A stretch of DNA of 64,000 nt from Streptomyces albofaciens JCM 4342 (lineage in GTDB: Bacteria; Actinomycetota; Actinomycetes; Streptomycetales; Streptomycetaceae): NCBI RefSeq assembly GCF_008634025.1, contig NZ_PDCM01000001.1:4000501-4064500 (forward strand). Direction: 5' to 3'. The translations under genes and the position numbers were made by a program. The first letter of the stretch is position 1. Each line of letters starts with the position of its first letter. Under the pieces are notes generated by a model, which worked only from the letters and a program-made list of their open reading frames with translations, made no database searches and had not been told where the DNA came from. Shown piece by piece: positions 51,057-59,523 of the stretch.

Positions 51057-51568
51057 ATGCCCGACGTGTCCCACCTGGCGCCGCTGCCGCCGAGGGCCGC
51101 CGACGACGACCGCCACGCGCTACGGGAGCGCATCCGCAGCGCGCTGGCCGAAGCGCTCGTCAACGGCACGTTGGCGCCCGGCCAGGAGCGAGGAGGCGAC
51201 GCTCGCCGCGCACCTCGGTGCTCCCCGCGACCCGCTCCGGGAGGCGCTGCTCCTGCTCGCCGCGCAGCGGCTCGTCGAGTACGTGGGGCCGGAGACGGTA
51301 CGGGTGACGACGACCGACGCCACCACCGCCCGGGACACCGCGGCCGCCCTGCACGGCCTGTACCGCACCACGCTGCTCACCGCGCCCTGGCCGCTGACCG
51401 ACGACGGCCTCGATGCCCTCCGTAACTCCGCTGCCGCGCACGCCCGCGCTGTCGCGCACCGGAACGCGGTGGAAGCCGCCGCTGCCGAGCGCGCCCTGTG
51501 GAGCGTCTTCGTTCACGCTTGCGGCAACCGGTCTCTGTACGACGCCGTCACCCGGCTCGCCCCCGTAT
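51057..51568 (+). pseudogene. gntR-family regulator, 5' part, frameshifted and interrupted by a transposon
   Basis: From ATG 51057 the frame encodes RHALRERIRSALAEALVNGT-LAPGQ, the first helix and wing of a GntR domain. At about 51186-51192 the frame shifts; the second frame continues with EEATLAAHLGAPRDPLREAL and an FCD-like C-terminal domain (AERALWSVFVHACGNRSLYD). A five-base loss between GAGC repeats would explain the shift. The frame is then cut at 51568 by the Tn3-family element. The rest of the gene resumes at 59519. Confidence 0.8.
51564..51568. repeat. Target site duplication, left copy (CGTAT)
   Basis: CGTAT immediately precedes the GGGG of the left terminal inverted repeat and is repeated exactly at 59519-59523 after the right one. 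Five-base duplications are characteristic of Tn3-family transposition. Confidence 0.85.
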
Positions 51569-51615
51569 GGGGTCCGGCCAAGGTGAGGTCAAAAGCCGCC
51601 ACGGGATGATCTTGA
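51569..51615 (+). repeat. Left terminal inverted repeat
   Basis: This 47 bp sequence runs inward from GGGGTCCGGCC to GGGATGATCTTGA and matches the reverse complement of 59472-59518 at 44 of 47 positions; mismatches are at positions 8, 20 and 21. Classical Tn3 repeats are about 38 bp and also start with GGGG. Confidence 0.9.
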
Positions 51616-51664
51616 AGGGCGCTCGGCCACCCGCAGGCCCGTGCGTCAGCCGCCGAGCCGGGGA

Positions 51665-52246
51665 TCATCGCGTGCCTGCTCCGAGCTGGGCGGGGATGCG
51701 GCTGCCCCGCAGTTCGCGCAGGTCGGGGATGTGGTTGTAGAGCGTGCCCGGGGAGACGCCGAGCATCTTGGCGATGGCGGTGATGGAGTGCTCGGGGTTG
51801 GGCAATAGGTCCCGGGCCATGTTGAGGATCTTTTCGTCGACCACGGTGGGTCGGCCGCCGACCTTGCCGCGGGCGCGGGCGGCGGCAAGGCCCTCGCGGG
51901 TGCCGGAGACGATGAGTTCGCGGATGAACTCGGCCAGGGCGGCGAAGACGTGGAAGACGAGCCGGCCGCCGGGGGTGGTGGTGTCGAGGTTTTCGTGCAG
52001 GGAGGTGAAGCCGATCTCGCGGCGGCGGAGCTCGGCGACCATGTTGATCAGGTCCTGGAGGGACCGGCCGTAGCGGTCGAGGGCGGGGACGACCAGGGTG
52101 TCGCCGGCGTCGAGGAAGGCGTGGCATGCCTTGAGCTCGGGGCGGAGGTCGTTCTTGCCGGATTTCTTGTCCGCGAAGATCTTCCGGCAGCCGGCCGCTT
52201 TGAGGGCATCGATCTGCCGGTCGAGTTTCTGTCCGCCGGTGGACAC
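51665..52246 (-). CDS. tnpR: Tn3-type serine resolvase (TnpR-like), start codon uncertain
   Basis: The protein has the resolvase catalytic domain (DRQIDALKAAGC, DTLVVPALDRYGRSLQDL, REIGFTSLHENLDTTTPGG, EFIRELIVSGTREGLAAARA) and a C-terminal helix-turn-helix (HSITAIAKMLGVSPGTLYNH). The active Ser follows Val at 52246. Homology (IRIGYAR-VS) extends upstream to about 52267, where an ATC stands in place of the expected ATG. No ATG, GTG or TTG occurs in frame between there and the upstream stop near 52441, so the gene may be dead or start at the GTG without its first strand. It should resolve cointegrates at a res site. Confidence 0.8.
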   Translation of the reverse strand: MSTGGQKLDRQIDALKAAGCRKIFADKKSGKNDLRPELKACHAFLDAGDTLVVPALDRYGRSLQDLINMVAELRRREIGFTSLHENLDTTTPGGRLVFHVFAALAEFIRELIVSGTREGLAAARARGKVGGRPTVVDEKILNMARDLLPNPEHSITAIAKMLGVSPGTLYNHIPDLRELRGSRIPAQLGAGTR

Positions 52247-52677
52247 GCGTGCGTATCCGATGCGGATCTCGGTCCGGACGGCAGGCTCGGCGGCCAGCAG
52301 TTCGAGACCGTACGGTGCAAGGGGCGTGTTCGCGCCCGGAATCCTGTCAGAAAACGGTGCTCCGAGGTTCTTGAACCACCCGGGTTGTTGAAGGAGTTTT
52401 TGAAGGCCCTGGGGGCCTTCCGGCGGTCCGCCCGGTGATCTTCATTAAACGTTGGTTCTTTGAAGATCGGCAGCGGGCCTGGCGCTCGGCCGAACCCTGC
52501 CGGTCGGCCCCGCTCGCACTCCTCGCCCATCAGCTCGTAGTACAAATGCGTCAATTCCCGCGCTTGGATCCCCCCTCCAAGGCCGGACGTCCTTAGCGTT
52601 CAATCCTGGAGCAATACCGGGACCCCGGAACCGGAGGTAGGGCATGGTTCGTGGGCGCTCCCGGCGCTGGTGGGGGG
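52247..52677. other. Region between resolvase and MFS genes, possible res site
   Basis: This 431 bp stretch carries the upstream part of the resolvase frame to about 52441, then an AT-richer segment (TTCATTAAACGTTGGTTCTT, about 52441-52460) where a res site would be expected in a Tn3 element. A minus-strand frame 52048-52554 crosses it but encodes nothing recognisable. The right end is downstream sequence of the MFS gene. Confidence 0.4.
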
Positions 52678-57779: not shown

Positions 57780-58748
57780 TCAGCCCTTGGGCAGGAAGGG
57801 GGCCGCGTAGCGGTCGCCGAAGGCGCCGTTCGGCAGGATCTCCTTGATCCGGGCGAGGTCGTGGCCGGTGAGCGTGACGCCGGTGGCGCCGATGTTCTCC
57901 GCCAGGCGCTCGGGGCTGCGGGTGCCGGGGATGGGGACGATGTCGTCGCCCTGCGCGAGCGGCCAGGCAAGGGCGAGCTGGGCGGTGGTGATGCCCTTGG
58001 ACGAGGCCAGCTCGGTGAGGGCGGCGACGGCTTGGGCGTTGGCATCGAAGTTCTCGCCCTGCCAGCGCGGGTCGCGGCGGCGCCAGTCCTCCGCGGTGTA
58101 CTGGTCGGCCGGCTTCATCGCTCCGGTGAGGAACCCGCGTCCCAGCGGGGCTTAGGGCACGAACCCGATCCCGAGCTCGCGCACGACCGGCAGGACGGTG
58201 TCCTCGACGTGCCGCTCGAAGACGGAGTACTCGGTCTGCAGGACCGAGACCGGCTGCACGGCGTGGGCGCGGCGGATGGTCTCGGGGCCGGCCTCGGGCA
58301 GACCCAAGTAGCGGACCTTGCCCGCCTCGATCAGCTCCTTCACCGTCCCGGCGACCTCCTCGATCGGCACGTCCGGGTCGACGCGGTGCTGGTAGAGGAC
58401 GTCGATGTGATCGGTGCCGAGGTAGCGCAGGCTGTTGTCGGCGACCTTGCGGATGTTGTCGGGCCGGCTGTTGAGACCGCCGGGGTTGGCGAGGTCGTAG
58501 CCGAACTTGGTGGCCAGCACCACCTCGTCGCGGAAACCCTTGACGGCCTCACCGAGCAGCCGCTCGTTCGATCCGGTGCCGCCACCGTAGACCTCGGCGG
58601 TGTCGAGCAGGGTCACCCCCAGGTCGAACGCGCGGCGGATGGTGGTGATGTTCTCCTCGCGGTTGCTGGGGCCGTAGAACATCGTCATCCCCATCGTGCC
58701 CAGCCCCAGGGCGGAGGTGGTCAGGCCCTGGCGGCCGAGGACGCGCTT
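57780..58748 (-). pseudogene. Aldo/keto reductase pseudogene (no start, internal stop)
   Basis: The frame reads [49 protein letters not shown] and [16 protein letters not shown] (catalytic Asp, Tyr, Lys, His all present). After GIGFVP an in-frame TAA (58152-58154) replaces the expected Tyr codon, and the same frame then continues with APLGRGFLTGAMKP to a normal end. No start codon precedes the first conserved residue; it abuts the truncated tnpA. A single base change explains the stop. Confidence 0.82.
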
Positions 58749-59317
58749 GTCAGCAGCCGACGCCGCTCTTCGGCCGTCATCCGGCCCCTCACGCCCGCCA
58801 GGATCTCCTCGTTGACCTCGCCCCGCACGGTGGACGCCATCGCATCCAGGGTGGAGAACCGGGGTATCTCCAGCCCCGCCTCCACCAGCTTCTCCAGCGC
58901 GATGTTGATCAGGTCCGCCGGGTTGTTCTTCGCCGCCGCCGCACAGCGCATCGCCTCCTCGGCGAGCTTGCGCGCCGCTGGGCCGTCGTAACGCACCCCG
59001 CACCGCTCACGCACCCACGACCGGTACCGCTCAGCCGTACGGCCCGACGCGTACACCGGCAGCGTGTTCTCCGGCAGCCCCACCGCCCGCCGCACGAACT
59101 CCACCACCTGCTCCGGCACGTCGTGAGCCTTCGGGAAACAGCCCATCCGCTGGTACGACTTCAATGCCACCAGCAGCGCGAGCTGATGCTCGTCGGAGTC
59201 CGTCACCCCCTCCGCCCACGCCCGTTCCTCCTCACCCGGCGTGAAGAACACATGCAGCTCACGCGCGGTGATCAACCGCTTGAACCGCGGGTACGCGGTC
59301 CGCTCGATCGAAGTCAT
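58721..59317 (-). pseudogene. tnpA: Tn3-family transposase remnant (N-terminal DUF4158 part)
   Basis: From ATG 59317 the product is about 198 residues: [73 protein letters not shown] and [18 protein letters not shown]. These match the DUF4158 N-terminal domain of Tn3 TnpA proteins, which are about 1,000 residues long. The catalytic DDE part is missing; the frame ends at 58721 inside the start of the aldo/keto reductase sequence. It begins 155 bp inside the right terminal repeat, as expected for tnpA. Confidence 0.82.
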
Positions 59318-59471
59318 CCCCACCCCACTCGACGCCCAGCCCTTGCTGGGAGGCGCCCCCGCGCCCGCGCGTGATCATCACTGGCCGACAGGCCCGGCAA
59401 GATCAAAACCACGGAATCCGGGACAGAAAATGTCTCCCGGTGATAAAGGGGCAGCGGGGGAAGTCAGAGCA

Positions 59472-59518
59472 TCAAGATCATCCCGTGGCGGCTTTTGGGC
59501 TCACCTTGGCTGGACCCC
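59472..59518 (-). repeat. Right terminal inverted repeat
   Basis: This is the inverted partner of 51569-51615 (44 of 47 identical). Read toward the outside it ends in GGACCCC, the complement of the outer GGGGTCC. Confidence 0.9.
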
Positions 59519-59523
59519 CGTAT
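59519..59523. repeat. Target site duplication, right copy (CGTAT)
   Basis: This is identical to 51564-51568 and directly follows the right terminal inverted repeat. Confidence 0.85.

Follow-up and report, generated by a model that had tools for sequence, protein, structure and literature searches.

Evidence for a defective, cargo-carrying Tn3-family transposon in a gntR-type regulator gene of Streptomyces albofaciens and for its relatives in the genus

We analysed a stretch of 64,000 nucleotides from Streptomyces albofaciens JCM 4342 (contig NZ_PDCM01000001.1, positions 4,000,501 to 4,064,500; hereafter the window), in which a gntR-type regulator gene is, with high probability, interrupted by a real, defective, cargo-carrying transposon of the Tn3 family. 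The element proper comprises 7,950 bp (window positions 51569-59518). An initial annotation, made from the sequence alone, had described 47 bp inverted repeats agreeing at 44 of 47 positions, an exact CGTAT duplication and a split gntR gene, all of which proved correct to the base. Judged by its genes, the element is predicted to be unable to move itself, because an internal deletion has removed the catalytic domain of its transposase gene, tnpA.

Results

Ends, target duplication and empty site

The left terminal inverted repeat, at the resolvase end (51569..51615, + strand), and the right one, at the transposase end (59472..59518, - strand), are 47 nucleotides long, begin with GGGGTCC and are 94% complementary (44/47). 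The right copy has no mismatch to the family pattern used below. They form the longest of the 71 inverted pairs found in 51300-59800, the runner-up having 41 nucleotides at 73%. The exact sequence CGTAT stands directly outside both repeats (51564..51568 and 59519..59523). Repeats of at least 38 bp starting with GGGG, a 5-bp duplication at a verified insertion and a transposase homologous to Tn3 TnpA are among the features of the Tn3 family; the first two were found here, with CGTAT present twice in the window and once in the uninterrupted site of another Streptomyces genome (G047), and the third is represented by an N-terminal remnant only.

The host gene was delimited by alignment to the intact gntR of G047, its 5' part lying at 51057..51568 and its 3' part at 59524..59675 (end approximate), both on the + strand. 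Once the element and one CGTAT are removed the halves rejoin in frame through a TGG codon (...LAPV-W-QRAQHL...), as had been annotated, and the rejoined order matches the uninterrupted G047 protein. Two further 2-bp deletions distinguish the window gntR from that of G047. The G+C content is 71.2% in the cargo, 72% in the flanks and 67-68% in the end modules.

When the rejoined gntR fragment was searched at the protein level against 392 genomes of the same genus, one close match besides the window emerged, the uninterrupted protein of G047 (80% identity), and the next-ranked match had 33%. At the DNA level G047 is syntenic with window positions 42647-50132 (90.4%, 7.5 kb), 50970-51570 (86.8%, 0.6 kb adjoining the insertion site) and 59518-64000 (91.8%, 4.5 kb). 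In the base-level alignment both flanks join in G047 across one single CGTAT, and its gntR is a complete frame. An empty site of this kind had been suggested as a check on the insertion. Since G047 combines syntenic flanks, one CGTAT and an intact gntR, the insertion is placed on the lineage of the window after its split from G047; traceless loss in G047 would be much less likely. The fairly recent insertion proposed in the initial annotation holds only relative to this split, the flanks being 87-92% identical, and decay has affected gntR as well as the resolvase and the reductase, before it or since. A DNA search with 1.3 kb of the left flank in 61 genomes, G047 not included, gave short scattered matches only, outside the own genome. 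Window positions 50133-50969 (about 840 bp) are missing from the otherwise syntenic G047 and hold a frame of 236 amino acids (50241-50951) with a secretion-signal-like start.

Transposition genes

The right end contains a 5' remnant of tnpA with 189 codons from the ATG (58751..59317, - strand). The frame 58721-59323 matches DUF4158 (PF13700) at 1e-29 over positions 2-165 of 165, so the domain assignment made earlier was borne out, and the comparison with relatives agrees with it: DUF4158 is the start of the Tn3 transposase in full-length relatives, as in genome G264, where PF13700 and PF01526 lie in a single frame of 1072 amino acids. The Tn3 transposase model NF033527 matches the remnant at 3e-20, below its cut-off. 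The DNA homology of the closest relatives runs to position 58751 and then diverges (L048/L256, L071, L072, L079, L232, L257 and L261) or runs to 58750 (L126), and more divergent relatives lose it earlier, at 58799-58836. No PF01526 match was found at the window locus, and the complete transposase with its DDE domain is absent. In a four-way comparison the lineage-specific codon changes of the remnant were five silent and one replacement, which only hints that the truncation may be recent.

At the left end lies a serine resolvase (tnpR) frame (51665..52345, - strand), and PF00239 at 3e-37 for 51665-52246 supports the Tn3-type resolvase originally noted there. Its start codon (site 52331-52333) is missing in the window; it is present in eight of the nine relatives that align gap-free there, the ninth, L119, likewise being without it. 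About 130 bp upstream of the resolvase are conserved among nine relatives, background level being reached near 52470, and the homology of relatives on this side ends at 52445-52474. This non-coding stretch with weak dyad motifs (52334..52473, - strand) is a putative res site.

Over 768 bp the right end module (58751-59518) shares 92.7% identity with the end of the G264 element, whose transposase of 1072 amino acids is intact, and by codons the start of that transposase was the closest of six relatives compared (162/189 identical). The left module shares 94% identity with Streptomyces sp. AV19 over 51656-52465. Elsewhere in the own genome (9.25 Mb, 2 contigs) the DUF4158 remnant has no match, and PF01526 is represented by three short fragments only. 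The mobility in trans considered in the initial annotation is possible in principle, with no helper found at home.

Cargo

Between the end modules lie about 6.3 kb of cargo (ca. 52474-58750) with five genes in intact frames. A Bcr/CflA-type MFS efflux transporter (52678..53934, - strand; TIGR00710 at 6e-82, above cut-off, and PF07690) is divergent from a MarR-family regulator (53983..54495, + strand; PF12802/PF01047). They are followed by an amidohydrolase-fold protein of the decarboxylase type, Amidohydro_2 (54578..55522, - strand; PF04909 at 1e-29), and by a metallo-amidohydrolase of the Xaa-Pro dipeptidase / carboxypeptidase type, Amidohydro_1 (55527..56753, - strand; PF01979), which is divergent from a LysR-family regulator (56837..57763, + strand; PF00126, PF03466). 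The sixth gene is an aldo-keto reductase pseudogene (57780..58750, - strand) with PF00248 in both pieces. Compared with the gene of Streptomyces sp. Alt1, it has lost its start at the tnpA junction and has an in-frame stop at 58152-58154; its frame begins directly at the 58750/58751 junction, without the first codons.

The solved relatives of Amidohydro_2 are mainly decarboxylases, including 5-carboxyvanillate and gamma-resorcylate decarboxylases, and its best structural-relative match, 2f6k, is named only a metal-dependent hydrolase. Amidohydro_1 matches NF051886 at 4e-55, below its cut-off, and the Cc2672 arginine carboxypeptidase at 1e-39; carboxypeptidases, prolidases and amide hydrolases head the list of its solved relatives, some of which (8ihq, 9l2t) presumably degrade ochratoxin. 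From these protein families, the cargo probably serves to cleave and export some aromatic amide or acid. Because relatives of the transporter, MarR and Amidohydro_2 also stand together in genome G006 (L230 8345-11734; 56-63% identity, different gene order), a functional link among these three is supported. G006 is the only one of four Amidohydro_2-homologue loci, inspected with wide flanks, that has this set. No chromosomal donor cluster for the cargo, the first reductase piece left aside, was found at these four loci; separate searches of other genomes did not extend to the MFS, Amidohydro_1, LysR and reductase proteins.

The family in Streptomyces

The repeat pattern, searched with up to three mismatches in the 392 genomes of the genus, the own one included, occurs at 24 places in 18 of them; the reversed pattern, used as control, was not found at all. 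Additionally, 37 of 72,556 plasmid records match the 47-bp repeat (30 of them over at least 80% of its length), and 35 of the 37 are from Streptomyces. Altogether eleven elements of 1.2-25 kb, that of the window included, have both ends and matching duplications.

Full transposases between related repeats, which the initial annotation had suggested looking for, were found in G084 (7.2 kb, duplication TTCTG), in G264 (25.2 kb; TACGTA, matching only in a 6-bp register) and in Streptomyces sp. NRRL B-24484 (L126; 8.0 kb, CGGCG), these three tnpA genes being open frames of at least 1000 amino acids (1089 in NRRL B-24484). In three further elements tnpA is covered nearly from end to end and interrupted: pFRL5 (13.6 kb, GTCAG), with ion transporters as cargo, S. 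anulatus NBC_00535 (6.1 kb, AGGTG; repeats of 40 and 38 of 46 positions) and G145, whose ends lie on two contigs with the complementary flanks TACAA/TTGTA. The gene is gutted in the remaining five, all of which keep the tnpA start adjoining the repeat. Besides the window element (7.95 kb, CGTAT) these are Streptomyces sp. HB132 (G029, L120; 7.6 kb, CTGTG), carrying an ABC transporter and a two-component set; the Streptomyces sp. Mg1 plasmid pSMg1-1 (L257 1208-10276; 9.1 kb, CAGCA), where tnpA is cut to about half, the cargo is a two-component / flavin-redox gene set and no resolvase match was obtained; G253 (L234 2933-8762; 5.8 kb, TGTCC), with an internally deleted tnpA; and G053 (L236 5570-6813, C1; 1.24 kb, CAGAA), where about 18 codons of tnpA are left and the left repeat agrees at 34 of 46 positions only. 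The G253 element also holds a protein of 1008 amino acids with a weak AAA_16 match below cut-off, and the G053 element, which lies some 5.6 kb short of the end of its 8.6-Mb contig, a frame of 217 amino acids.

Seven of the 18 pattern-positive genomes gave matched pairs. Eight others showed none within the approximately 12-15 kb read, mostly on the inner side (in G279 to the contig end only), and G016, G094 and G194 were outside this wider reading. Eight of the 37 plasmid records were opened, three of which (pFRL5, pSMg1-1 and S. anulatus NBC_00535) have matched pairs; NBC_00161 has two related ends with a duplication that does not match, and a proper end pair was not seen in the stretches read of NBC_00046, NBC_01230, NBC_00984 and S. 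uncialis. Among 79 surveyed loci that have related resolvases, most represent other Tn3 lineages, with L120 and L126 sharing the ends of the window element. L156 and L193 were rejected as members: they have matched duplications but other ends, family-like at 15-19 of 46 positions.

Four single ends (L237, L238, L239 and L240, in G257, G278, G325 and G263) have the near-identical outer flank GCCTC/GCCTT and no partner within about 12 kb; they may descend from a single old insertion passed down to several species, or represent an end that has become fixed on its own. At L084 7769-8154 (G019:C2) two ends of the same orientation, 340 bp apart, enclose a resolvase fragment 82% identical to that of the window.

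A relative carrying a polyketide synthase

Besides its intact transposase, the G264 element (G264:C6:437438-462612; L232 1939-15001 and L233 1-12112) carries a type I polyketide synthase of one module (KS-AT-DH-KR-ACP, 1764 amino acids), which matches a Streptomyces roseoverticillatus protein at 100% identity. Also encoded within it are a FAD-binding protein, an AveC-like spirocyclase, an amine-oxidase-like protein, a resolvase and a phosphosulpholactate-phosphatase-like protein. Genes matching TniQ, TniB and Mu-transposase-C are also present, as is one TnsA-like match below cut-off. When 99 genomes were searched with the left flank, matches extending as far as the insertion point were obtained in eight others, and in all five of these that were fetched (G059, G054, G050, G031 and G035) the flanks are continuous without the insert. 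G054 has a single TACGTA and an uninterrupted frame of 533 amino acids across the site, an amidase (PF01425, 1.8e-106); by this comparison the G264 element is taken to be inserted in an amidase gene.

Discussion

Order of events and alternative explanations

Very probably a Tn3-family transposon jumped into the gntR-type regulator gene, duplicating the 5-bp target CGTAT. The transposition would have been of the usual replicative Tn3 kind, with the cointegrate resolved at a res site beside the resolvase. About 6.3 kb of cargo, namely the efflux pump with MarR, the two amidohydrolases with LysR, and the aldo-keto reductase, were brought along, and an internal deletion joined the first 189 tnpA codons to the reductase, with loss of the catalytic domain. 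We slightly favour the loss of tnpA after the insertion over movement of an already gutted element with the help of a transposase acting in trans.

This latter explanation, in which the element already lacked a working tnpA on arrival and was mobilised by a full relative, much like TIMEs or mobile insertion cassettes but at cargo size, is given somewhat less than an even chance. The gutted tnpA contrasts with ends and a duplication that are intact, those ends hardly differ from the ends of relatives whose transposase is intact, four other paired members (G029, G253, G053 and pSMg1-1) likewise combine a gutted tnpA with matched duplications, and mobilisation of Tn3 ends in trans is documented for TIMEs (PMC4133298). 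Against it, the host shows no more than the three short transposase fragments, the gutted cargo unit is not known at any second site, and a deletion after insertion requires no helper. That the two repeats are separate insertions of related elements which flank the region by accident could be suggested by the differences at 3 of their 47 positions and by the unpaired single ends in several genomes; the identical CGTAT outside both ends, single at the clean G047 site, refutes it, and it retains hardly any probability. A chance inverted repeat in GC-rich DNA might be imagined from the many weak inverted pairs of the region, and it is excluded for practical purposes, because 47 nucleotides at 94% stand against 41 at 73% for the next longest pair; the absence of the reversed control pattern from genomes that hold the true one at 24 places also refutes it.

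Several observations weigh against the account given first, taken as a whole. The five gutted elements among the eleven with matching duplications would also fit movement in trans. Movement of the present unit has not been observed, because no second copy of the exact cargo element was found; the closest further match to the Amidohydro_2 protein in the 392 genomes has 61% identity (five candidates scored per genome), and no plasmid record covers 80% of the element. AV19 (L118), which has the closest resolvase (96% identical), is without a recognisable transposon end, and the evidence for the putative res site consists of conservation and weak dyads. In the codon test the intact G264 gene had two silent and four replacement changes, these numbers being small.

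Significance

Taken alone, the window element is one more decayed Tn3 element, and the general interest lies in its family, above all in the polyketide-carrying relative. The cargo sets in the lineage include efflux and amidohydrolase genes (window), an ABC transporter with a two-component set (HB132), ion transporters (pFRL5), redox genes (pSMg1-1), and a polyketide synthase with tailoring-type genes (G264). We tentatively suggest that this streptomycete Tn3 lineage might act as a gene-cluster shuttle, in which two end modules (a repeat with the tnpA start, and a repeat with a resolvase of this or another type) enclose unrelated operons and gutted copies ride on the transposase of intact ones. 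If this were true, Tn3 transposition would serve generally as a means of relocating such clusters in streptomycetes, one that has attracted little notice. The repeat pattern is a specific marker that finds the cargo-transposon family in Streptomyces, including the carrier of the polyketide synthase, and therefore transposon-borne relocation of biosynthetic genes becomes searchable and testable. Such relocation is apparently undescribed in the open-access literature searched, a scope that leaves most subscription papers outside.

Comparison with known systems

The initial annotation had regarded Tn3 ends on a metabolic cargo as unusual in a streptomycete. This did not hold, since Tn4556 has been published (PMC6403206) and ten other members, most with cargo, were found here. 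Tn4556, from S. fradiae, belongs to the Tn3 type, measures 6,625 bp and has repeats of 38 bp and 5-bp duplications; its cargo is a methyltransferase and a prenyltransferase, and it resembles the window element as a Tn3-type transposon of Streptomyces with 5-bp duplications and metabolic cargo between tnpA and tnpR. By its described features, with no direct comparison of the sequences, Tn4556 differs in having 38-bp repeats, a complete tnpA and a tyrosine-type resolvase (PF00589) as against 47-bp repeats, a gutted tnpA and a serine resolvase (PF00239). The window element therefore lacks the resolvase type and the repeat length that would make it Tn4556-like.

Elements that keep Tn3 ends, have no working transposase and are moved in trans have been described as TIMEs, along with larger derivatives (PMC4133298, PMC13367494). 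The window element resembles TIME, TIME-RES and TIME-COMP elements in having such ends with a duplication of 5 bp (5 or 6 bp in those elements), and TIME-RES likewise carries a site-specific recombination module. In these sources the tabulated TIMEs have 262 bp, and MITEs 50-500 bp (PMC13367494), whereas the window element has 7.95 kb, a tnpA remnant and its own cargo; with 7,950 bp and five intact-frame cargo genes it is not of miniature size. Neither does its cargo lie between two TIME copies as in TIME-COMP, the end modules being different and sharing only the repeats.

Among the relatives, NRRL B-24484 shares both end modules (80% nucleotide identity at the tnpA end, 82% at the resolvase/res end), its repeats agree at 44 of 46 positions with the family reference, and its 5-bp duplication lies outside the outermost pair; it differs in the full tnpA, in a different cargo and in a further right-end repeat located within the outer pair. 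The G264 element provides the nearest transposase end found, with its own repeats agreeing at 46 of 47 positions, and differs in the intact transposase, another type of resolvase (36% match), the polyketide cargo, the TniQ/TniB/Mu-transposase-like genes and the 6-bp duplication. Since the DDE catalytic part of tnpA is absent, the window element is classed as a non-autonomous, cargo-carrying Tn3 derivative, which is a kind already known.

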